A stretch of 64,000 nucleotides of DNA from Agrobacterium larrymoorei. Lineage in GTDB: Bacteria > Pseudomonadota > Alphaproteobacteria > Rhizobiales > Rhizobiaceae. A program made the position numbers and the translations under genes. Below are positions 19,348 through 63,274 of the stretch, one piece after another. Each line of letters starts with the position of its first letter. Position 1 is the stretch's first letter. The stretch is from positions 550,001-614,000 of the forward strand of contig NZ_CP039692.1 in NCBI RefSeq assembly GCF_005145045.1, in the 5' to 3' direction. Under the pieces are notes generated by a model. The model worked only from the letters and a program-made list of their open reading frames with translations. It made no database searches and was not told the origin of the DNA.

Positions 19348-20237
19348 CAGGGTACCTCACGACCGTTTGCAAGCGTGTAAAGCTCAAACCATGTCTGGCG
19401 ATCCATCTTGACCTCATTGGCCTTGGAGATGGTGGCGATGCGGGCCAGATTATTCGTACCCATGACCGGCAGGATTTTTGCCGGATGGGCGAGAAGCCAT
19501 GCGACGGCAACCGCTGCCGTATCGACATTGTTTTCCCGGGCGATACGTTCCAGCGCATCGGCCAGCGGACCTTCTTTGCCCATCAGCGAGCCGCCACCGA
19601 GCGGAGACCAGGCCATGATCGGCAGATCACGCTCCTGCAAATATGCCAGATCGCCATTGGTGAAGGGCGATGTTTCCGCAAGGCTGATTTCGATCTGATT
19701 CGTAACCAGCTCTTCCGTCATGTTGGATTGCAGCAGCGAGAAATCCCACGGGCGGAAATTCGAAACGCCGACGCTTTTCACCTTGCCCGATGTCACAAGC
19801 GCATCCAGCGCTTCACCGGTCTCTTCCGGGTCCAGCATAGGGTCCGGGCGATGGATCAACAGAAGATCGATGCGATCCGTGTTCATGTCGCGAAGCGAGG
19901 CTTCTACGGATTCGTTGATGTGCTTTGCAGACGTGTCGTAATGTTTTACGCGGGCAGCAGAGTGGCGGCCAGCGGGCGCAACGATGCCGCACTTGGTCAC
20001 GATCTCTATTTTGTCACGCAGCGATGGCGCTTCACGAAGGCCGCCGCCGAGAATGGCTTCTGCGGTGTAGCCACCATAAATATCGGCCTGATCCATGGTC
20101 GTGATGCCCTGCTCAAGGCACGCCTCGATCTTTGCCTGCACATGGCGCGGCGAGGTGTCGGCATCGTCACCGATGCGCCACATGCCGTAAACGATGCGGC
20201 TGAAGGAAAGACCGGAAGTGATATCGATGCGTTGCAT
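19347..20237 (-). CDS. smoB: Aldo/keto reductase SmoB (6-oxo-glucose reductase)
   Basis: NADPH-dependent aldo/keto reductase of 296 residues; in the sulfo-SMO pathway it reduces 6-oxo-glucose, left after desulfonation, to glucose. Catalytic tetrad visible: aspartate and tyrosine in [11 protein letters not shown], lysine in IVTKCGI, histidine in LLLIHRPDP. The phosphate-binding C-terminal part is present ([14 protein letters not shown]). It overlaps smoC by one base at 20237 and smoA by one at 19347, so the three genes form one coupled transcript. Related YcdF/oxidoreductases of other function exist; the neighbourhood decides the role. Confidence 0.9.
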
Positions 20238-21394
20238 TAGTGGCGCTCTCCATTGCCAAGAGGTGTTGCAGGTGTTTCTGCCGGAACGCGACCTCGCGCA
20301 TGCGGAAGCGAGCAGGTCTTCATTTGCGGCAGCACCTTTTTGCCGAAATGTTCGGCCTCATCAAGATGCGGATAGCCGGAGAAGATGAAGGCGCGTATGC
20401 CCATCTTCTGGTATTCTTCCAGCTTGCTCAAAACCTGATCGGTGGAGCCGACGAGCGCCGCACCGCAGCCGGAACGGGCACGGCCAACACCGGTCCATAG
20501 ATGCGGCTCGGTATAACCGAACTGATCCGCCTGCTCGCGCGCCTTGGCCTGATGCGCAACGCCGAGCGAAATGCTGTCATGGGCGCGGGCGCGGATCTGG
20601 CGGCCATACTCGTCATCCAGTTTCGAGACGAGGTGTTCGGCATATTCATGCGCTTCCGCTTCCGTATCGCGGACGATCATATGAACGCGCAGACCGTAAT
20701 CCAGCGTGCGGCCATGGGCCTCGGCGCGAGCATGCACGGCGCGCATGCGCTCTGCCAACTGCTCCTTCACTTCCGGCCACATCAGGTAAACGTCGCACTG
20801 CGCGCCGCAGAGTTCCAGCGCATCAGGCGAATAACCGCCGAAATAAAGCAGCGGGCCGCCATTCTGCTGGTAAGGCCGTGCCGGTTCAGTCGAGACGTTC
20901 TTGAACTGGTAGATTTCACCTTCATGGTTGATTTCATCGCGAGTCCAGGCCTGACGAAGAATCTCGACCACCTCGTGGCTGCGCTTGTAGCGATAGGCGC
21001 TATCGGCCACCTCGCCCGGAAAATCCGAACTGATGACGTTCAGCGTAAGACGGCCCTTAAGCATATGATCGAGCGTCGCGACGGTACGCGCCAGCATGAT
21101 CGGCTGCATTTCTCCGCAACGAATGGCGGCCAGAAAATTGATGTCTTGCGTAATCGGCGCGCAACCCGCAACGAAGCTCAACGTGTCCTGCCCAACCTGA
21201 TAGGAAGATGGGCACAATATATTGCGAAACTTGAGTTCTTCCGCTTTTCTGACGATGGAGGAGCAATGATCCCAGCTGGAGCGCAGGCGGCCATCCGGCA
21301 CGCCCAAAAACTCGTAGTCATCGGAGCAAAGAGCCGAAAACCAGGACACCTCGGCAGCATCGAGGTCAGCTGAGGTTACGGGCACAACGGTCAT
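20237..21394 (-). CDS. smoC: FMNH2-dependent sulfoquinovose monooxygenase SmoC (luciferase-like)
   Basis: Two-component flavin monooxygenase of 385 residues, in the same luciferase-like group as the alkanesulfonate monooxygenase SsuD. It cleaves the C-S bond of sulfoquinovose to release sulfite and 6-oxo-glucose. Seen: FVAGCAPITQDINFLAAIRCGEMQPIMLARTVATLDHMLKGRLTLNVISSDFPGE, followed by YRYKRSHEVVEILRQAW, both typical of the SsuD group. The ATG at 21394 follows GGGAGG by 6 bases; a TTG at 21454 lies inside the promoter element and is rejected. First gene of smoCBA, divergent from smoD. Confidence 0.92.
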   Translation of the reverse strand: MTVVPVTSADLDAAEVSWFSALCSDDYEFLGVPDGRLRSSWDHCSSIVRKAEELKFRNILCPSSYQVGQDTLSFVAGCAPITQDINFLAAIRCGEMQPIMLARTVATLDHMLKGRLTLNVISSDFPGEVADSAYRYKRSHEVVEILRQAWTRDEINHEGEIYQFKNVSTEPARPYQQNGGPLLYFGGYSPDALELCGAQCDVYLMWPEVKEQLAERMRAVHARAEAHGRTLDYGLRVHMIVRDTEAEAHEYAEHLVSKLDDEYGRQIRARAHDSISLGVAHQAKAREQADQFGYTEPHLWTGVGRARSGCGAALVGSTDQVLSKLEEYQKMGIRAFIFSGYPHLDEAEHFGKKVLPQMKTCSLPHARGRVPAETPATPLGNGERH

Positions 21395-21447
21395 AAAAAT
21401 CCTCCCAAAACGTCCAATGCCTATTTCAATATCATCCACCTTGATGT

Positions 21448-21468
21448 AAATCAATGATGTATCAATTT
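21448..21468 (-). promoter_or_regulatory. Shared 21-bp smo element (smoC promoter copy)
   Basis: Minus-strand sequence AAATTGATACA, then TC, then ATTGATTT. The smoE promoter copy (22304-22324) is identical except for the two central bases (CT). The element contains ATTGAT twice at an 11-base interval, i.e. one helical turn. Its second TTGATT can serve as a -35 for smoC, with a weak -10 (TATTGA) about 17 bases on. An adjoining inverted repeat TTGAT-GTAA-ATCAA spans 21441-21454. Likely bound by SmoD, which is inference. Confidence 0.6.
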
Positions 21469-22390: not shown

Positions 22391-24747
<2,357 letters not shown>

Positions 24748-32873: not shown

Positions 32874-33164
32874 ATGTCTAAAATCAAAAGCTTGGGTGCC
32901 GCAGTCATTGTGGGCGTTGCAGTGGGCGCAGCATTTATGATGCTCGACAAATCTCGCGGCGCGGAATGGGTCGTTTCGCCCCAGCAGATTGAGCAGGCGA
33001 AGGCAGAAGGCAAAGTCGGTTACGAGTCGTCCCCCGGCACCGTAACGGTTCTGCCGATCCGCAGCGAAACAGCCGATGTGCTACCGTTCAAATGGACGAT
33101 GTATGGGCTGGTTGCCGGTGTCGTGACCTTCGTCACGCTGCGCAGGAAAGAAAAGAAGGCCTAA
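32874..33164 (+). CDS. Small membrane protein of unknown function
   Basis: 96 residues with a hydrophobic segment at each end (AAVIVGVAVGAAFMML near residue 8 and MYGLVAGVVTFVTL near 76) and a polar middle of about 50 residues (EWVVSPQQIEQAKAEGKVGYES). The last residues are basic (RRKEKKA), suggesting both ends are cytoplasmic with a periplasmic loop. CAGGAG precedes the ATG at 6-base spacing. The first cuckoo hairpin (33171-33206) can terminate its transcript. No family recognised. Confidence 0.75.
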   Translation: MSKIKSLGAAVIVGVAVGAAFMMLDKSRGAEWVVSPQQIEQAKAEGKVGYESSPGTVTVLPIRSETADVLPFKWTMYGLVAGVVTFVTLRRKEKKA

Positions 33165-33170
33165 AAACGA

Positions 33171-33325
33171 AAAAGCCTGCCGCGGGAGGAGGTGCGGCAG
33201 GCTTTTCGAAAAGAACCGAACAGCAGCTGGGAGGAGGAGTGCTGCTGTTCCACCAAATGCCCTTTGGGAGGAGGATAAGGACATTTGAAACTCGAAGCTC
33301 TGCGGGAGGAGGTGCATCGCTTCGA
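33171..33325 (-). ncRNA. Tandem array of four CCUCCUCCC-loop hairpins (cuckoo/CcsR-type sRNAs)
   Basis: On the minus strand, downstream of a DUF1127 gene, four consecutive stem-loops each display CCTCCTCCC in the loop. Plus-strand motif copies are at 33184-33192, 33229-33237, 33266-33274 and 33304-33312. Stems: 33171-33183 with 33194-33206 (13 bp, then a T tract, acting as terminator), 33219-33227 with 33241-33249 (9 bp), 33255-33264 with 33277-33286 (10 positions, one mismatch), and 33292-33298 with 33319-33325 plus an inner 3 bp. This is the arrangement of the Rhodobacter CcsR and rhizobial cuckoo RNAs, processed from the 3' region of a DUF1127 mRNA and stress-induced. The exposed motif can pair with Shine-Dalgarno-like G-rich sequence. 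Confidence 0.88.
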
Positions 33326-33407
33326 TGGTTAGAAGTTAACTTGGTTTACTCGCACAATAAATACGCTTTATCGCAGGAGAGGCATGCAAATTCGCATACC
33401 TTGGAAA

Positions 33408-33557
33408 TTAGAGGCCAGCGACCGATGCGCGGGCAACGCTGCGGATATCGGCGCGGTTGATGCCGAGGTCCTGCAATTCGCGTGTGCTCATGCGGCCGAG
33501 TTCGTTGACGGTCTGACGATACTTGCGCCAGTTGTTCAAAGAGCGTGCTACGTTCAT
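33408..33557 (-). CDS. DUF1127 small arginine-rich protein (CcaF1-like)
   Basis: 49-residue protein, MNVARSLNNWRKYRQTVNELGRMSTRELQDLGINRADIRSVARASVAGL in outline: a typical DUF1127 protein with the conserved ELGRMSxRELxDLGI core. The ATG at 33557 is preceded by AGGGG. In Rhodobacter the DUF1127 protein CcaF1 is encoded upstream of the CcsR RNAs and affects their processing; the same coupling is inferred here because four CCUCCUCCC hairpins follow on the same strand about 80 bases downstream. A TTGGAAC near 33610 (minus strand) could be part of a heat-shock sigma promoter, but I cannot support a -10. Confidence 0.85.
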   Translation of the reverse strand: MNVARSLNNWRKYRQTVNELGRMSTRELQDLGINRADIRSVARASVAGL

Positions 33558-33679
33558 GATGATCCCCTTTCGTGAGGTCCTTGACGCCAGCAACCAGTTC
33601 TTAGTTCCAACGTCGTTTCGATGATTGGAATATAGTCTTTCCGGGACTTTACGATAAGTCACAGCTTATCAAGTCCGCC

Positions 33680-34236
33680 ATGCGGCAGATGCATGGGTCT
33701 GGACAAATGCTGCGCATTTCTGCCAAGAAGAGCCTTAAGACCTTCAAACTGAGCGATATATTGAACACTCCATCCCTTCAGCTTTATGTCGACGGCTCCT
33801 TCGATCCTGCCCTTAAACGCGGGGATGGGGATTGGTGGTCCTGAGGGACAATGTAGAAATCGCATCTCTTTCAGGTGGCGCAAACATATTCGATAACAGC
33901 GCCATGGAACTGGAAGCCCTTCTTGCGGGCATGTTCTGGCTAGAGCAAAACGCTCCGACCGAGGCTGCAATCATCTGGTCCGACGCGGTTTATGCGGTGA
34001 GGGGCTGCAACGAATGGCGACATATGTGGAAATCCAACGGCTGGAAGCGCCGCACTGCAAATGGTCAAGGCCGCAGCCGCGCTATTCCAAACGCTGAGCT
34101 ATGGAAGAAAATCGACCTCCATCTCACGCAAAACCCGCTGACGATCGTATCATGGTGCAAGGGCCATGCTGGGCATGGCTGGAACGAGAAGGCGGACGCG
34201 TTGGCGCAACAGGGCAGGCTTTCACTGCGTACCTGA
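33680..34236 (+). pseudogene. RNase H-family protein interrupted by a 1-nt frameshift
   Basis: Two frames together give a complete RNase H domain. From the ATG at 33680 (or 33689) the first frame reads to LQLYVDGSFDPALKRG and then hits TGA near 33840. The second frame carries on as GGWGLVVLRDNVEIASLSGG through NSAMELEALLAG, IWSDAVYAVRG and SWCKGHAGHGWNEKADALAQQG to 34236. All four acidic catalytic positions (YVDGS, MELEA, WSDA, EKADA) survive. Adding one G to the GGGG run at 33821-33824 would restore the expected RGGWG. It is therefore a recent inactivation, a sequencing error, or less likely a programmed shift. Confidence 0.75.
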
Positions 34237-34343: not shown

Positions 34344-34411
34344 TGTTATTAACGTGACCCTGGGCCCGCGTGCCGAAGGTTACGACAGAGCGATTTAGAC
34401 CAGGTCGATTG

Positions 34412-34918
34412 ATGAGTAGAGCCTTATTACAGCTTCTCGATACGCAGGAAGAAAGCCGCTTGATGCGCTTCTTCAGGCGTCAGCTACGAGATCGCGAAGA
34501 TGCGGCAGATGCATTGCAGGAAACGGCATTGCGCGCCTTGCAGGTATCTCCTTTCACCGCAATCGAAAACCCCCAGGCTTACCTTTTCCAGATCGCAAAA
34601 TCCGTCGCTCGCCTGTCCATTATCCGGCAATCGCGCGAGAGGCCCCTTCTTGTGCCGCTTGAAGATGGGCTGGGCGTCGCCTGCGACGGCCCCTCACAGG
34701 AGCAGATCGTTGCCGGTCGCCAGCAACTCGCGGCAATGGCGCGTGAAATCGAAGCCCTGCCGAAGCGATGCCAGCAGGTTTTTGTCCTAAGCCGTCTGCA
34801 TGGGTTACCGAATGGCGAGATCGCGGTGAAGCTTGGCATATCCCGCAACATGGTGGAAAAGCACATTATCAAGGCACTGCTTCACTGCCGCGCAGCGCGT
34901 GCGAAAATAAATTCCTGA
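34412..34918 (+). CDS. fecI: FecI-like ECF sigma factor
   Basis: Extracytoplasmic-function sigma factor of 168 residues, expected to direct transcription of the adjacent receptor gene. Region 2 is visible as LMRFFRRQLRDREDAADALQETALRAL with PQAYLFQIAKSVARL, and region 4 as EALPKRCQQVFVLSRLHGLPNGEIAVKLGISRNMVEKHIIKALLHCRA. The ATG at 34412 is chosen over a GTG at 34370. FecR and a TonB receptor with a signalling domain follow, giving the standard cell-surface signalling order. The iron box upstream suggests repression in iron-rich cells. Confidence 0.87.
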   Translation: MSRALLQLLDTQEESRLMRFFRRQLRDREDAADALQETALRALQVSPFTAIENPQAYLFQIAKSVARLSIIRQSRERPLLVPLEDGLGVACDGPSQEQIVAGRQQLAAMAREIEALPKRCQQVFVLSRLHGLPNGEIAVKLGISRNMVEKHIIKALLHCRAARAKINS

Positions 34919-34998
34919 TACGACGTCAGGCGCTCGTTTCTTTTGCACTCATTATATATGGATGCAACTGAACAGAAGACGAAGACGGCGCCCTGCCC

Positions 34999-35949
34999 AT
35001 GCACGAACCTGCGAACGACCTGAATGACGACGGCCTCGCCGAAGAGGCTGCGCTTTGGGTTGCACGAATGCAGTCCGCTGACGCCACGCAGGCAGACCAG
35101 CGCGACTTCGAGGATTGGCTGAACGCTAGCGCCGCGCACGGCCAAGCCTATGAGGAGATGCAAAGTCTCTGGGGTTCAATGCGTGGCATCGATCTTGAAC
35201 TCCCAAAGCAACGCAAGCGCATTTCCGGCAAGGCAGCGACTGCAACACTCGCTTTACTCTGTCTCATCGGCCTATCATTGTTTTTCGCACGACAGAGCGG
35301 CGTTGTCGAACGCCTTCAGGCAGACTACTATACCTCCGTCGGCGAAACCAAAGTCGTGACACTGGATGACGGAACACAGATCAGCCTCAACACGGACTCG
35401 GCTGTTCAGACCCGTTACACGCCCAGTGAACGAAGGGTCGTTCTGCTGCGCGGCGAGGCCTTCTTCGATGTCGCAAAGAACCCCCAGCGGCCATTCATCG
35501 TCGAGAGCGGAACGCTCACCGCTCAGGCGCTCGGCACGCATTATGCCGTTCGCTCGGCAAGCAACCTGCTTGCGCAGGAAGAGCAGGTTGAAGAAGGTGA
35601 AGTGCGGGTTGACGCTGCAGGCGAAACGACGAGGCTCGTTGCTGGAGATGCGGTGACGCTGGATGATGGCGGCAAATTTATCCGCACAAAACAAGATGTG
35701 GCCAACAATACGGCCTGGCGGGACGGAAAGCTTGTCTTTTCCGGCCAGTCGCTGGGAGAAGTCCTCAAGGTTCTGGAGCGATACCGTCACGGACGTATCG
35801 TCGTTCTTGATGATCGAGCGGCAAAGTTAAGCGTTTCCGGCATTTTCGATCTCAGGCAGACCGATCAGGCGCTTCATATTCTCGAGACCAATCTTCCGGT
35901 CACCGTCACCCACATGTCGAGCCTGATGGTTTTCGTTCGGTCCCGATAA
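34999..35949 (+). CDS. fecR: FecR-like anti-sigma/sigma regulator
   Basis: Single-pass inner-membrane regulator of 316 residues. The cytoplasmic N terminus has the FecR_N pattern EEAALWVARMQSADATQADQRDFEDWLNASAAHGQAYEEMQSLW. A membrane segment ATATLALLCLIGLSLFFA lies near residues 82-99. The periplasmic FecR domain follows (VGETKVVTLDDGTQISLNTDSAVQTRYTPSERRVVLLRGEAFFDVAK), ending in an STN-like C-terminal part. It should relay receptor occupancy to FecI. It begins 80 bases after fecI. Confidence 0.9.
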   Translation: MHEPANDLNDDGLAEEAALWVARMQSADATQADQRDFEDWLNASAAHGQAYEEMQSLWGSMRGIDLELPKQRKRISGKAATATLALLCLIGLSLFFARQSGVVERLQADYYTSVGETKVVTLDDGTQISLNTDSAVQTRYTPSERRVVLLRGEAFFDVAKNPQRPFIVESGTLTAQALGTHYAVRSASNLLAQEEQVEEGEVRVDAAGETTRLVAGDAVTLDDGGKFIRTKQDVANNTAWRDGKLVFSGQSLGEVLKVLERYRHGRIVVLDDRAAKLSVSGIFDLRQTDQALHILETNLPVTVTHMSSLMVFVRSR

Positions 35950-58078: not shown

Positions 58079-58657
58079 TCAGTCCGAAGACAGCGATTTC
58101 AGGTCTTCGACAGTATCGATATCGCGCAAAAGACTGCTGTCGCAATCCACAAACACGGCATCCTTCAACAGGCCCCGCGCGCCACCCTCACCCGTCTTCG
58201 GCAAGCTCCGCAACAAATGGGTAGCAAACACCGCCGGAGGACCGCGATAGTCACCTGACCGGGATGCGACCGCAGCACTTTCCGCTTCTCCTGCTTTCGC
58301 GAGCAAAGCAGCAATGATGCCACTTTCGATCAACGGCATATCCGCCAAACATATCATCGCGCGCGGCAGGTCTCCCGCAGCCTCTGAACCGAGATGGAGT
58401 GAGGACAGCATGCCCTGCGCCCGCTCTTCATTCTCCACCAACTCGAAACCATGCTCGGCAAACAGACCGCTCCATCGCGGCCTGCCGTGATGCACCAGAA
58501 CCTTCTTGCCCCAATTGAACGGCGCGACCGCCGCAAGAACATGATGCGCGACCGGCTTGCCCTTATAGTCCGCCCCAAGCTTGTCACCCCCGGCAAAGCG
58601 GCTTCCCAGCCCTGCTCCGAGCACAATCAAAGCGACCTGAGACGCATCAGCCTCCAT
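58079..58657 (-). CDS. MobA/MocA-like molybdenum cofactor nucleotidyltransferase
   Basis: 192 residues with the nucleotidyltransferase loop VLGAGLGSRFAGGDKLGADYKGKPVAHHVL, the metal-binding ICLADMPLI and RGPPAVFATHLL. This subgroup (MocA, CTP:molybdopterin cytidylyltransferase, and CoxMocA-like proteins) attaches a nucleotide to the pterin cofactor. Its place behind an XdhC gene and paoABC indicates supply of MCD cofactor to that oxidoreductase. The ATG at 58657 overlaps the end of the XdhC gene by 11 bases. Confidence 0.83.
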   Translation of the reverse strand: MEADASQVALIVLGAGLGSRFAGGDKLGADYKGKPVAHHVLAAVAPFNWGKKVLVHHGRPRWSGLFAEHGFELVENEERAQGMLSSLHLGSEAAGDLPRAMICLADMPLIESGIIAALLAKAGEAESAAVASRSGDYRGPPAVFATHLLRSLPKTGEGGARGLLKDAVFVDCDSSLLRDIDTVEDLKSLSSD

Positions 58658-59564
58658 GCTTTTCCAGCCTTGCTGCGGAAATATCGGCGAGCACGGATAT
58701 CGCCAGAGAAACGGAATCCCGTGTCGGCCCGAAAATACCGATTGGCGCGCGAATGCGGTCCGAAAGTTCAGGCGCGACACCGTGCTCCCGAAGCCGGTCA
58801 ACGCGCCGTCTGTGCGTGCGCGTACTTCCCAGAGCCCCAATATAAAAAGCTTTTGTGCGGAGCGCCGCTTCAAGCACCCGCTCCTCGGCATCGATGTCAT
58901 GGTGCAGCAGCACGACCGCCGTAAAGGCATCGACAACCCCGTTCAGCGCCGCCTCTGCCCGCAAATCCACCACATCATAGCCCGCAGATTCTGCCAGCCG
59001 CGCCAGCGCTTCCGCTTCACCGGCCTGCCCGGAAAAAGCAAGCCGCGTTCGGGGACGATAGACGATTGTCAAAGTCCCTTCGGTATGTGCGACTCGGGCC
59101 GGAACGTTCCGTGCCACTCGAAGTTCGCCTGCTTCGATGTCATATTCCAGCCCGGTAACCTCACGCTTTTCCAGCTTTTCCAGAACGTGAAACAGCACAC
59201 CTGCATCACGCAGAAGATGGATGGCGATGGTAATACCACCGCCGCAAGGCAGCACGATATCGAAGAATGGCGACCCGTCTCCATAGGTTACGATCTGGTC
59301 GCGCCCTTCCTCGATTGCCTTCACCGCCTCCGAAGCAAGCGCAGCCTCTACGCATCCGCCGGAAACATAGCCACAAAATCGCCCGTCTGCGGCAACTGCA
59401 ACATGGGCGCCGAGTGAACGGGCGCCACCGCCTCGAATATCGATGAGCGTACACAGAGCGACGCCACCCCGTGTGGCCTCCTCCGCGGCAAAGCGGAGGA
59501 TTTTAGCGGGATCGTCGGTCGTGCTGATGCGCTCGGGGACGATGTCGACGGTTTGCAGCTGCAT
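58647..59564 (-). CDS. XdhC/PaoD-family molybdenum cofactor insertion protein
   Basis: 305 residues. XdhC_CoxI N-terminal domain with GGVALCTLIDIRGGGARSLGAHVAVAADGRFCGYVSGGCVEAALASEA, then a Rossmann-like C-terminal domain containing AFTAVVLLHHDIDAEERVLEAALRTKAFYIGALGSTRTHRRRVDRL and RAPIGIFGPTRDSVSLAISVLADI. These chaperones bind the sulfurated cofactor and insert it in xanthine-oxidase-family enzymes. The ATG at 59564 follows GGGAGG by nine bases; ATG 59573 sits on that site. 16 bases after the large subunit gene. Confidence 0.87.
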   Translation of the reverse strand: MQLQTVDIVPERISTTDDPAKILRFAAEEATRGGVALCTLIDIRGGGARSLGAHVAVAADGRFCGYVSGGCVEAALASEAVKAIEEGRDQIVTYGDGSPFFDIVLPCGGGITIAIHLLRDAGVLFHVLEKLEKREVTGLEYDIEAGELRVARNVPARVAHTEGTLTIVYRPRTRLAFSGQAGEAEALARLAESAGYDVVDLRAEAALNGVVDAFTAVVLLHHDIDAEERVLEAALRTKAFYIGALGSTRTHRRRVDRLREHGVAPELSDRIRAPIGIFGPTRDSVSLAISVLADISAARLEKHGG

Positions 59565-59580
59565 GCCAGTCATCCTCCCA

Positions 59581-61785
59581 TCAAGCGACTGCTGGCAGGC
59601 CCGCAATCAGCTTGTCCAACGTCATCGGATAATGCCTGATGCGAACGCCGCTGGCATTATAAATTGCATTGGCGATTGCTGCCGAAACACCGCAGAGGCC
59701 AAGCTCGCCAACACCCTTCGCTTTCATCGGCGATGCATATGGATCCGCCTCATCCATGAAGATAACCTCCTGATGAGGGATATCCGCATGCACCGGCACT
59801 TCATAACCCGCCAGATCGTGATTGACGAAGAAGCCGCGACGCGTATCCACCGCCAGTTCTTCCGAAAGCGCACCACCGGCACCCATCGTCATCGCACCGA
59901 TAACCTGGCTGCGCGCCGTGATAGGGTTCAGAATACGCCCTGCGGCACAAACGGCCAGCATCCTGCGAATGCGGGTCTCGCCGGTAAACGCATCAACCCC
60001 GACCTCCACGAAGTGCGCGCCGAATGTGGATTGCTGTTTCTCTTCCGAGAGATCGCCCCATTCCATCGTGTCTTCAGCGGAAAGACCCTCGGCACCCGCT
60101 GCCTCCGCAAGTTCGACCGAGCGGCCGCCCGAGCGAACCTGACCATCTTCGAACACCACGTCATGTGAGTTCAGGCCAAGCTTTGTGGTGATTGCTTCGC
60201 GCAGCTTCGTACAGGCGGCGTAAACGCCTGAGGTGGAACAATTGGCACCGAACTGGCCGCCCGAACCGGCAGAAACCGGAAAGCTGGAATCGCCGAGCTT
60301 AACCACCACCTTGTCAACTGGAAGCCCCAGCATTTCTGCAGCGGTCTGCGCAATGATCGTATAGCTGCCTGTACCGATATCGGTCATATCGGTTTCGACG
60401 GTCAGAACGCCCTGATTATCCAGCTTCACCCGTGCACCCGAAGGAACGAGAAGATTGTTTCTGAAGGCAGCAGCCACGCCCAGCCCGATCAGCCATTTGC
60501 CCTCGCGCCGCGCTGTCGGAGCCTTCCGCTCTGCCCAGCCGAAACGGTCTGCGCCAAGCTTCAGACAGCCAACCAGATCGCGCTGGGTAAATGGTCGCTT
60601 CGGATTTTCCGGGTCTACCTGCGTATCGTTGATGATGCGGAATTCCACCGGATCGATGCCGACCTTTTCGGCCATCTCATCTATTGCGATTTCCAGCGCC
60701 ATCAGGCCCGGCGCTTCGCCGGGCGCGCGCATCGCATTTCCTTCGGGCAGGTCCAGCACCGCAAGCCGCGTCGCCGTCATGCGGTTCTCACCCGCATAAA
60801 GCAGCCGCGTCTGCATCACAGCCGTTTCCGGGTTGCCATCCGGCAAATCGCCGGACCAGCCTTCATGGCCAATCGCTGTGATCTTACCATCGCGCCCGGC
60901 ACCGATGCGAATACGCTGGATCGTGGCTGGACGATGCGTCGTATTGTTCATCATCAAAGGTCGCGGCAAAGCCACCTTCACCGCACGACCGACTGCCTTC
61001 GCACCGAGCGCTGCCAACACCGCATCCACCCGCAGAAACAGCTTTCCACCAAAACCGCCGCCAATATAGGGTGACTTCAAATGAACCTTTTCCTTGTCTA
61101 CGCCAAGCGTCTTCGCAAGGTCTGAACGCCACCAGTCGATCATCTGGCTCGATGTCCAGACGGTGACTTCGTCATCTTTCCATAGCGCAATCGAAGCGTG
61201 AGGCTCCATCATCGCATGGGATTGATCGGGCGTCGTATAATTAGCGTCGAACTGAACTTCGGCAGCGGCAAAAGCGCTTTCAAAGTTCCCTACCGCCGTA
61301 TCGGGCTCGGCACCACCAGCGTCTTCAGGCTTTTCGGCCTTGTGCTTGACGGCCTCAAGCGAGAACGCGCCGTCCTCCTCCACATATTCCGCCTTCACCA
61401 ATCCAGCAGCAGCGCGCGCCTGCTCGAAGGTCTCGGCAATAACGACCGCGATTGCCTGATGATAATGCTGAATCTTATCGCCGCCAAAGAGCGTCGCCGT
61501 GTTGTAATCGCCCTTTTCACCTACTTTCGCCGAAAGCGTCGTCACCACACCGAGAACGCCCGGAGCCTGCTCCGCAGCGCTGGTGTCTATCGAGGTTACA
61601 CGCCCTTTCGCGATTGGGGAAACGACCGGATAACCATAAGCGTATTGAATATTCGGATCATGCCATTCATAGGCATAACGCGCCTGTCCGGAGGTCTTCA
61701 ACTCGCCGTCGATGCGGTGGACCGGCTGGCCGACGACCTTGAGCCTGTCGATGGGGTTGGTTGTGGCTGGCTGATCGAATTTCAT
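59581..61785 (-). CDS. paoC: Molybdenum aldehyde oxidoreductase large subunit (PaoC-like)
   Basis: Molybdopterin-binding subunit of 734 residues. Cofactor motifs: [55 protein letters not shown] and the catalytic glutamate in [27 protein letters not shown]. The length and absence of other domains match the separated S-M-L type of E. coli PaoABC/YagTSR. It oxidises aromatic or other aldehydes in that family; the natural substrate here is unknown. The start overlaps the FAD subunit stop in an ATGA. Confidence 0.88.
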
Positions 61786-62741
61786 GCGCTCAACTCCCTT
61801 GCATCTTCAACCGCGGAGGCAAGAATGCGCTCGACGAGATCGATCTTGTAACGGTTTTGCTCCGTTGGCCGTGCGCCGGTCAGTGCCGCCGCGGAAGCCC
61901 TCTTCGCCCCCTCGGCAAGCGCCGCATCGGCCTCTTCCACTCGCCAAGGCTTATGAGCGATACCGCCAATCGCAAAGCGCCCGCTGCCATCGGGCTGGAT
62001 GATAGTTGCGACAGAAACCAGCGCAAAGGCATAGGATGCGCGGTCTCGCACCTTCCGATAGGCCTGTTCGCCACCGACCGGCGGCGGCAGGATAACGGCA
62101 GTGATGAACTCACCGGGTTCCAGCGATGTTTCGATATGCGGCGTCTCGCCCGGCAGGCGATGGAAGTCGGCAATCGGGATAGACCGCTTCTCACCGCTTC
62201 CATTCACCGTTTCCACGACAGCATCCAGCGCTCGCAACGCCACAGCCATATCGCCGGGATAGGTAGCGATGCATTCATCGCTGGAACCGATCACTGCGTG
62301 CTGACGGGAAAACCCGCCAATGGCGGAGCAGCCGCTGCCCGGTTGGCGCTTGTTGCACGGCTGGTTCACGTCATAAAAATAGGGACAGCGCGTCCGCTGC
62401 AGCAGATTGCCCGCTGTTGTCGCGCGGTTACGCAATTGGCCGGACGCACCTGCGAGGATTGCGCGGGAGAGAACTCCATAATCCCGCCGCACGGTCTCAT
62501 TCGCCGCCAGATCGGTGTTGCGCACCAGCGCCCCAATCCTCAAGCCACCCTCTTCGGTCGCCTCCACGGCGTCGAGACCAAGCCCGTTGACGTCGATCAG
62601 GTGATTGGGCGTCTCGATTTCGAGCTTCATCAGATCGAGGAGATTGGTGCCGCCCGCAATGAACTTGGCATTTTTATTGGAAATCGCGGCGCGCGCGGCC
62701 TCTTCCACGGAAGCTGCTTTCTCGTAAGTAAAGGCTCTCAT
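61782..62741 (-). CDS. paoB: Molybdenum oxidoreductase FAD subunit with extra 4Fe-4S site (PaoB-like)
   Basis: 319 residues. FAD-binding [26 protein letters not shown] and [18 protein letters not shown]. Directly after comes the cysteine insert [28 protein letters not shown], the hallmark of the PaoB subgroup that holds an additional 4Fe-4S cluster. The ATG at 62741 overlaps the small subunit stop as ATGA. Confidence 0.88.
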
Positions 62742-63274
62742 AGACGCGCTCCCGTCACTTCGGAAATCGCATCCATGATGTTGGAATACGCCCCGCACCG
62801 ACAGATATTCCCGCTCATCCGTTCGCGCACTTCCTTTGGCGAAAGTGCGACTTCCGCCGTCAAATCGTCGGTGGCGTGGCTGGGGATATTAGCCTTGATT
62901 TCTTCCAGCACTGCCACGGAGGAACAAATTTGTCCCGGCGTACAATATCCGCACTGGAACCCGTCATGCTTTATGAAAGCAGCCTGCATCGGGTGAAGAT
63001 TTCCCGGCTGGCCAAGGCCCTCAATCGTGGTGACCTCGTCGCCATCATGCATCAGGGCCAGCGAAAGACAGGAATTGATCCGTCGCCCGTTGACGATAAC
63101 CGTGCAGGCACCGCATTGCCCATGGTCGCAGCCCTTTTTTGTGCCCGTCAGATGCATATGCTCGCGCAGCGCATCCAGCAGCGTCGTTCTGTTATCGATA
63201 TCCAGTTCACGGATGTCTCCGTTCACCTTCAATGAGACCGTAGCTTGGTGTGACATATCATCTCCCGCAGGCAT
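62738..63274 (-). CDS. paoA: Molybdenum oxidoreductase 2Fe-2S subunit (PaoA-like)
   Basis: 178 residues. Plant-ferredoxin-type cluster in [27 protein letters not shown] and the second cluster in [15 protein letters not shown] and [17 protein letters not shown]. Unlike E. coli PaoA there is no twin-arginine signal, so this enzyme should be cytoplasmic. Two starts have good ribosome sites: ATG 63274 (GGGAGG, seven bases) and ATG 63256 (GGGAG, five bases); I use the first. First gene of paoABC-xdhC-mocA. Confidence 0.88.

Follow-up and report, generated by a model that had tools for sequence, protein, structure and literature searches.

What is the cluster of four short identical repeats that lies beside a small DUF1127 gene of Agrobacterium larrymoorei, and how might it be transcribed and act? 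The repeat, CCTCCTCCC, occurs four times in the window (the whole 64-kb stretch of DNA that was analyzed), always on the minus strand (33184-33192, 33229-33237, 33266-33274 and 33304-33312) and at spacings of 45, 37 and 38 bases, just as an earlier note on this DNA had it. The chance count for the window has a mean of 0.34, and none of 100 dinucleotide shuffles reaches four. As a single 9-mer, CCTCCTCCC is not enriched in the genome as a whole (45 matches, against 47 for the backwards pattern); the signal of the array therefore resides in the clustering of its motifs.

The minus strand of the array has a folding energy of -71.5 kcal/mol, compared with a mean of -41.9 for shuffled sequences (z = -8.0, 0/200), and the predicted fold leaves all 36 CCTCCTCCC bases unpaired, spread over four loops. 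The stems are unlike one another while the loop motif is constant, a contrast proposed from the single sequence and borne out by the fold and by the alignment of 27 arrays that is described below. The hairpins are these:

33292..33325, minus strand: hairpin 1, loop motif 33304-33312, not covered by the ar14 model (see below); seen in fold and covariation
33253..33288, minus strand: hairpin 2, loop motif 33266-33274; seen in ar14 match, fold and covariation
33218..33250, minus strand: hairpin 3, loop motif 33229-33237; seen in ar14 match, fold and covariation
33168..33208, minus strand: hairpin 4, loop motif 33184-33192, terminator-like; seen in ar14 match and fold

Open reading frames cross the array on both strands, but a coding function was rejected: the stems covary, and the spacing between hairpins (36-40, 34-37 and 43-45 bases between motifs across the arrays of the genus) varies by amounts that are not divisible by three, which counts against a reading frame. 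Hairpin 4 had been proposed as a terminator on both strands. On the minus strand it runs into GGCTTTTTCGTTTTT and is plausibly a terminator; the plus strand carries just TTTTCG after the hairpin, so that this half of the proposal is weak. A consensus terminator scan of the minus strand from 33000 to 33900 found none, the scan being limited to loops of 8 bases and the loop of hairpin 4 having 10.

The array has a clear place among known RNA families:

33168..33293, minus strand: match to Rfam model ar14 (RF02344), 109.2 bits against a gathering threshold of 58.8 (E 2.8e-19), hairpins 2-4

This match spans the whole of the model (positions 1-123) and is the sole above-threshold cmscan match in the window. 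It leaves hairpin 1 over: ar14 has three hairpins per transcript, whereas the array has four, of which three fit the model and the additional one is 5'. The CcsR1 model (RF02791) gives 36.9 bits on the array (threshold 65.3) and the ar7 model 34.6 bits (threshold 60); membership of both was dropped, since both scores are under threshold. The earlier designation of the array as cuckoo/CcsR-type thus survives in its first half only, and by its sequence the array is a better fit to ar14/SmelA099 than to CcsR. A run of four hairpins that carry CCUCCUCCC in their loops and have variable, covarying stems is also the mark of the SmelA099 family, which was described in 2011, has a 160-nt member in S. 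meliloti and another, L5, in A. tumefaciens that was verified by deep sequencing and northern blot (PMC3927594, PMC2873474), and is grouped with the cuckoo RNAs, or CIN1 loci, beside DUF1127 genes. (L5 is a related member, and as an orthologue only a candidate; the available sections of these two papers make no mention of DUF1127 linkage.) The four-copy set is accordingly less new than had been supposed, and its assignment to an already published kind of RNA, found in Agrobacterium and relatives, is well supported by sequence and structure comparison. Two further ar14 loci in the same genome have three motifs each. PmaR was considered as an Agrobacterium counterpart and set aside, its interacting region not being anti-Shine-Dalgarno according to the accessible part of PMC6234868.

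Covariation of the stems in related genomes, which the earlier note had set beforehand as a check, is found. A DNA search with the DUF1127 gene and the array as joint query gave matches in 39/39 genomes of the genus, part of them to DUF1127 genes alone. Arrays are present at 27 of the 30 loci fetched from this search (one of the 30 being the window), and 12 of these 27 are without a DUF1127 match within the fetched stretch. Eight of the 30 loci are 100% identical to a named locus, five of these being from Agrobacterium (A. rosae, A. rubi, A. bohemicum and two from A. tumefaciens) and the rest from Rhizobium skierniewicense, Rhizobium rhizogenes and a Rhizobiales bacterium, which makes Agrobacterium the most likely genus. 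All 27, with four exact or near-exact motifs each (two are altered in L049 and one in L059), were aligned, and covariation was counted on the structure given by the fold of the window, with 500 shuffles and slid partners as controls. Paired cells amount to 92.8%, compared with 88.0% in the shuffles, a percentage that is favored by the use of the window-fold structure for counting. Pairs changed on both sides number 18 of 47 (14.2 in shuffles, of which 8/500 reach 18), and the covariation score of 0.277 compares with 0.188 in shuffles (0/500); slid partners reach no more than 0.105. One measure opposes these: further pair types number 43, compared with 48.0 in the shuffles, 500/500 of which are at least as high. 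Of the 18 pairs changed on both sides, 16 lie in hairpins 1-3 and the other two towards the outside of hairpin 4; the inner stem of this last hairpin has no double change among the 27 arrays, and its stem as a whole is little varied within the genus (10/15 pairs invariant). Hairpin 2 is paired in just 75.7% of alignment cells because gaps split its arms, and RNAalifold by itself does not pair it. Folded one by one, 24/27 arrays leave all four 9-mers unpaired, the exceptions being L047, L049 and L061. A four-hairpin covariance model built from these 27 arrays of one genus gives 51 genus matches at 145 bits or more, the next match scoring 114.8; this score class is present in 38/39 genus genomes (all except G020), with motif number confirmed in the fetched loci only. 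In the genome of the window the model scores 202.1 bits at the array and 92.8 and 83.8 at three-hairpin loci. The array very probably specifies a four-hairpin small regulatory RNA, and the tags in its loops would be able to pair with the ribosome sites of mRNAs.

How such an RNA might be transcribed depends on what lies upstream of it:

33408..33557, minus strand: DUF1127 gene, 49 aa (PF06568, E 1.1e-16)

The Pfam match establishes the claim that the array lies downstream of a DUF1127 gene, one of six DUF1127 matches in this genome. A short DUF1127 gene on the same strand, here 95 nt upstream of the array, is what characterizes a CIN1 locus as cited in PMC10253847, and linkage of anti-Shine-Dalgarno hairpins to short DUF1127 genes is common to the array and the cuckoo RNAs (Reinkensmeier and Giegerich 2015, as represented in PMC10253847 and PMC7143759, which cite it). 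What may set the array apart from them is the spacer. A GC hairpin of at least six G-C pairs, often ACGCCCGC...GCGGGCGT, lies between DUF1127 gene and array in 63/66 pairs (60/63, together with 3/3 added at loci L085, L094 and L120, which had escaped a text pattern for DUF1127; the 66 pairs include at least five that are one sequence under two records), and in 49/63 it also satisfies a stricter rule that includes a T run. The three exceptions to the 63/66 are the pairs of the window, of L041 (genome G008) and of L116. In L116 the hairpin is interrupted; in the window and in L041 there is none, and the spacer, 95-96 nt long, is made up of the upstream region of the array. Read-through across such a junction could make the array the 3' UTR of the DUF1127 gene.

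A tree of 67 arrays places L041, the window and L042-L044 together with support of 0.995, and the window with L042-L044 with 0.915. DUF1127 was not found at L042-L044 in the 3.2 kb fetched; these loci retain the array, its upstream region, the convergent neighbor and an RNase H-like gene. The simplest order of events suggested by these sequences would have the hairpin lost first and DUF1127 lost afterwards in the sister lineage. It is possible, at somewhat worse than even odds, that loss of the hairpin fused two normally separate, co-regulated genes of the Rhizobiaceae, so that one transcript would comprise DUF1127 message and four-loop RNA; an arrangement like that of ccaF1 and the CcsRs would then have arisen independently in a small Agrobacterium lineage, with DUF1127 later deleted in the sister species and the array kept. 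No description of a hairpin-less junction between DUF1127 and array was found in the available passages of the literature on these RNAs, in which the 2015 cuckoo RNA paper is represented by the papers citing it. The junction offers a natural comparison for the action of DUF1127 on the RNA of its own transcript, a point that is open in the literature (available text of PMC12501420).

Several neighbors may be recorded here. The convergent one (32874-33164, plus strand) is a 96-aa protein without Pfam match, which is also found beside the array in L042-L044 (78-88% identity). The RNase H-like gene (33680-34236, plus strand) is apparently broken: its Pfam RNase_H match extends over profile positions 39-139 of 141 only, and the missing start is to be seen by eye in another frame, in a 54-aa ORF that itself has no Pfam match. 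Near the arrays of L041-L044 there are relatives of this gene, at 51-56% identity. Next comes a gene for an ECF-type sigma factor, and then an ORF that by eye resembles a FecR-type regulator (34370-35949, plus strand).

Two candidate promoters, P1 for the DUF1127 gene and P2 for the array, can be drawn on the minus strand:

33678..33695, minus strand: LysR-type (VtlR/LsrB-like) box of P1, ATGC-N7-GCAT, 11/15 to the VtlR motif (p 0.02)
33629..33635, minus strand: -10-like element of P1, CTATATT, from sequence and relatives
33381..33399, minus strand: LysR-type box of P2, GTATGCGAATTTGCATGCC, in the same position before the first motif as in relatives
33333..33340, minus strand: -10-like element of P2, GTTAACTT (GGTATCTT in many relatives), seen by eye in upstream regions at fixed offset

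A scan of the minus strand from 33000 to 33900 for consensus sigma-70-type promoters found neither of them. The P1 box stands 50 nt upstream of TATATT. The P2 box of the window matches the VtlR motif, a consensus from Brucella (CAATGCAGCCATGCA) as quoted in PMC12595884, at 10/15 positions (p 0.07-0.09, like the other box p values from mononucleotide shuffles, which preserve base composition only), and its -10 (TAACTT) is poorer than the versions in relatives. It is the relatives that give the box its weight. Stacking the upstream regions of the arrays brings ATGC-N6/7-GCAT, followed by CTGCnCTGC, into one fixed position. Of 30 array rows (two of them the window itself), 27 match the VtlR motif best at -75 to -77, counted from the first motif, and L041-L043 do so a few bases further upstream. 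Rows other than the window score 8 to 14 of 15; p is 0.05 or less in 21/30 rows and above 0.05 in 9/30. In many rows a TATCTT- or TATATT-like -10 precedes TCATCGAAGC, with which hairpin 1 begins. Upstream of DUF1127 genes (those of 80 named loci, which rank best among at least 267 relatives, and that of the window) the best match lies at -132 to -112 of the ATG in 65/81, with p of 0.05 or less in 39 of these. A LysR-type box at a fixed place upstream of the arrays of the genus and of DUF1127 genes would be the new element here, weak as it is at the array of the window. The array probably has a promoter of its own, with such a box in the interval from the DUF1127 stop to hairpin 1, and co-regulation of the two genes appears likely. 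LsrB of S. meliloti binds a box of this kind and activates NfeR1 (PMC10746234, in its available part), an RNA of the ar14 family with the box upstream; VtlR of A. tumefaciens activates abcR1, atu1667 and vrsA (PMC7486931, likewise), and atu1667 is taken as a DUF1127 gene by way of its Brucella orthologues (PMC12595884). The presumed start of the DUF1127 message in the window (33605-33634, minus strand) resembles the presumed start of a three-hairpin RNA at L002 (TATATTCCAATCATCGAAACGACG compared with TATATTCAAATCATCGAAGCGACG), as though both had received a copy of one promoter module.

What might the loops pair with? The earlier note had pointed to GGGAGG-type sites in smoC, smoF, paoA and xdhC, and all four hold up among the five GGGAGGA-N3-8-ATG places in the window (the smo and paoA names come from that note and from neighboring genes, not from a family match):

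20237-21454, minus strand: luciferase-like monooxygenase (smoC)
22391-23467, plus strand: ABC ATPase, absent from the earlier list
from about 23515, plus strand: solute-binding protein (smoF)
58647-59606, minus strand: XdhC-type gene
62738-63274, minus strand: 2Fe-2S subunit (paoA), read as an ORF only

There are 132 such places in the genome, compared with 16 for the backwards pattern; AAGGAGA-N3-8-ATG starts are equally frequent (130, and 23 backwards). Sixty starts of each kind (the first 40 listed on contig 1 and the first 20 on contig 2) were compared, leaving 53 GGGAGGA and 44 AAGGAGA genes once 7 and 16 frames of fewer than 60 codons had been dropped. The genes were scanned as sets, with the 25 commonest families listed, and the longer ones (36/53 and 23/44) also singly; a LacI-type regulator with a binding-protein domain was kept out of the binding-protein class, and one further ABC ATPase seen in the set scan alone was left out of the counts. 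Substrate-binding protein genes make up 13/53 of the GGGAGGA and 3/44 of the AAGGAGA genes (p 0.027; 0.028 when stratified by contig), NfeR1 having guided the choice of this class, and five genes of the window being part of the GGGAGGA set. By contig the figures are 5/33 and 2/31 (contig 1, p 0.43) and 8/20 and 1/13 (contig 2, p 0.056), and for all import parts 18/53 and 7/44 (p 0.062). This suggests a modest enrichment of uptake genes, which fits the target predictions for NfeR1, mostly ABC transport genes (PMC10746234, available part). NfeR1, activated by LsrB, silences ntrB through these loops (same source), and by analogy the loops of the array most likely mask GGGAGGA-type ribosome sites.

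Taken as a whole, the locus is best explained, with a probability of roughly 0.85, as specifying a small RNA that is about 160 nt long, acts in trans and is of the ar14/SmelA099 (cuckoo) kind. P2, bearing a box of the VtlR/LsrB kind, would drive leftward transcription ending at hairpin 4, and since the hairpin that normally closes DUF1127 is missing, transcripts from P1 could also continue through the array. Each loop would present CCUCCUCCC as an anti-Shine-Dalgarno tag, and its pairing with GGGAGGA-type ribosome sites would block initiation on mRNAs that include several for substrate-binding and other uptake proteins, repression being what the homologue NfeR1 leads one to expect.

R. sphaeroides provides the model for a different origin of the RNA. 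Its CcsR1-4, which have the same loop motif and also lie downstream of a DUF1127 gene (ccaF1), are released by RNase E from a single ccaF1 transcript made at an RpoHI/RpoHII promoter (PMC10253847, in the text available). The array could likewise be a DUF1127 3' UTR that is transcribed from P1 only and matured by RNase E with the aid of the DUF1127 protein, and the spacer free of a GC hairpin, shared among the 66 pairs with L041 only, is what such an origin calls for. Against it, the spacer consists of an upstream region that three orthologues have conserved without DUF1127, and a hairpin divides DUF1127 from array nearly everywhere else; an origin from P1 alone is judged unlikely. The array, below threshold for CcsR1, probably also differs from the CcsRs in having a promoter of its own.

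The other two alternatives concern what the RNA does. CcaF1 binds RNA (PMC10253847), and the loops might chiefly bind or titrate a protein, such as the DUF1127 protein, instead of pairing with mRNA; short DUF1127 proteins of A. tumefaciens, however, bind the kinase PhoR, RNA binding by the domain being under discussion (PMC12501420, available text), and the many array loci of the genus at which no DUF1127 match was seen also speak against titration, which appears quite improbable. That the repeats are structural DNA or 3'-end elements of mRNA without activity in trans, as the terminator-like and little-varied hairpin 4 might suggest, is highly improbable in view of the constant loops and covarying stems, the family score, the upstream box and the demonstrated trans activity of an ar14 homologue (PMC10746234, as available). 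In the preferred explanation, a trans-acting anti-Shine-Dalgarno RNA, the look-alike LysR-type boxes would tie the four-loop RNA to DUF1127, making for a testable link between VtlR/LsrB (a regulator of redox and host interaction), DUF1127 proteins and the translation of uptake genes.

Arrays of at least this general kind extend beyond the genus. Three-motif arrays are found in 84/121 genomes of the family of the window, and a sample of the phylum gives matches in 30/398 genomes (15 in that family, 13 in family f25 and two others), the backwards control giving 2/398. A sample of the class gives 1/385, the genome of the window itself (backwards control 2/385); apart from that genome the family is not represented in it, and its four genomes of family f25 give no match, so that it says little on distribution. 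Among the 80 named DUF1127 loci, the top-ranking ones in a set of at least 267 relatives, 51/80 have two or more same-strand motifs within 800 nt downstream, 10 have an array upstream and 19 have none, L091 being cut off by a contig end. Family f25 includes two very long runs of motifs (G692:C1 from 2243425 and G716:C1:2868584-2869070), with 14 and 10 three-motif matches that overlap and share one direction, and L154 (G595:C1:199869-200273), in the family of the window, has three tandem three-motif arrays about 160 bases apart.
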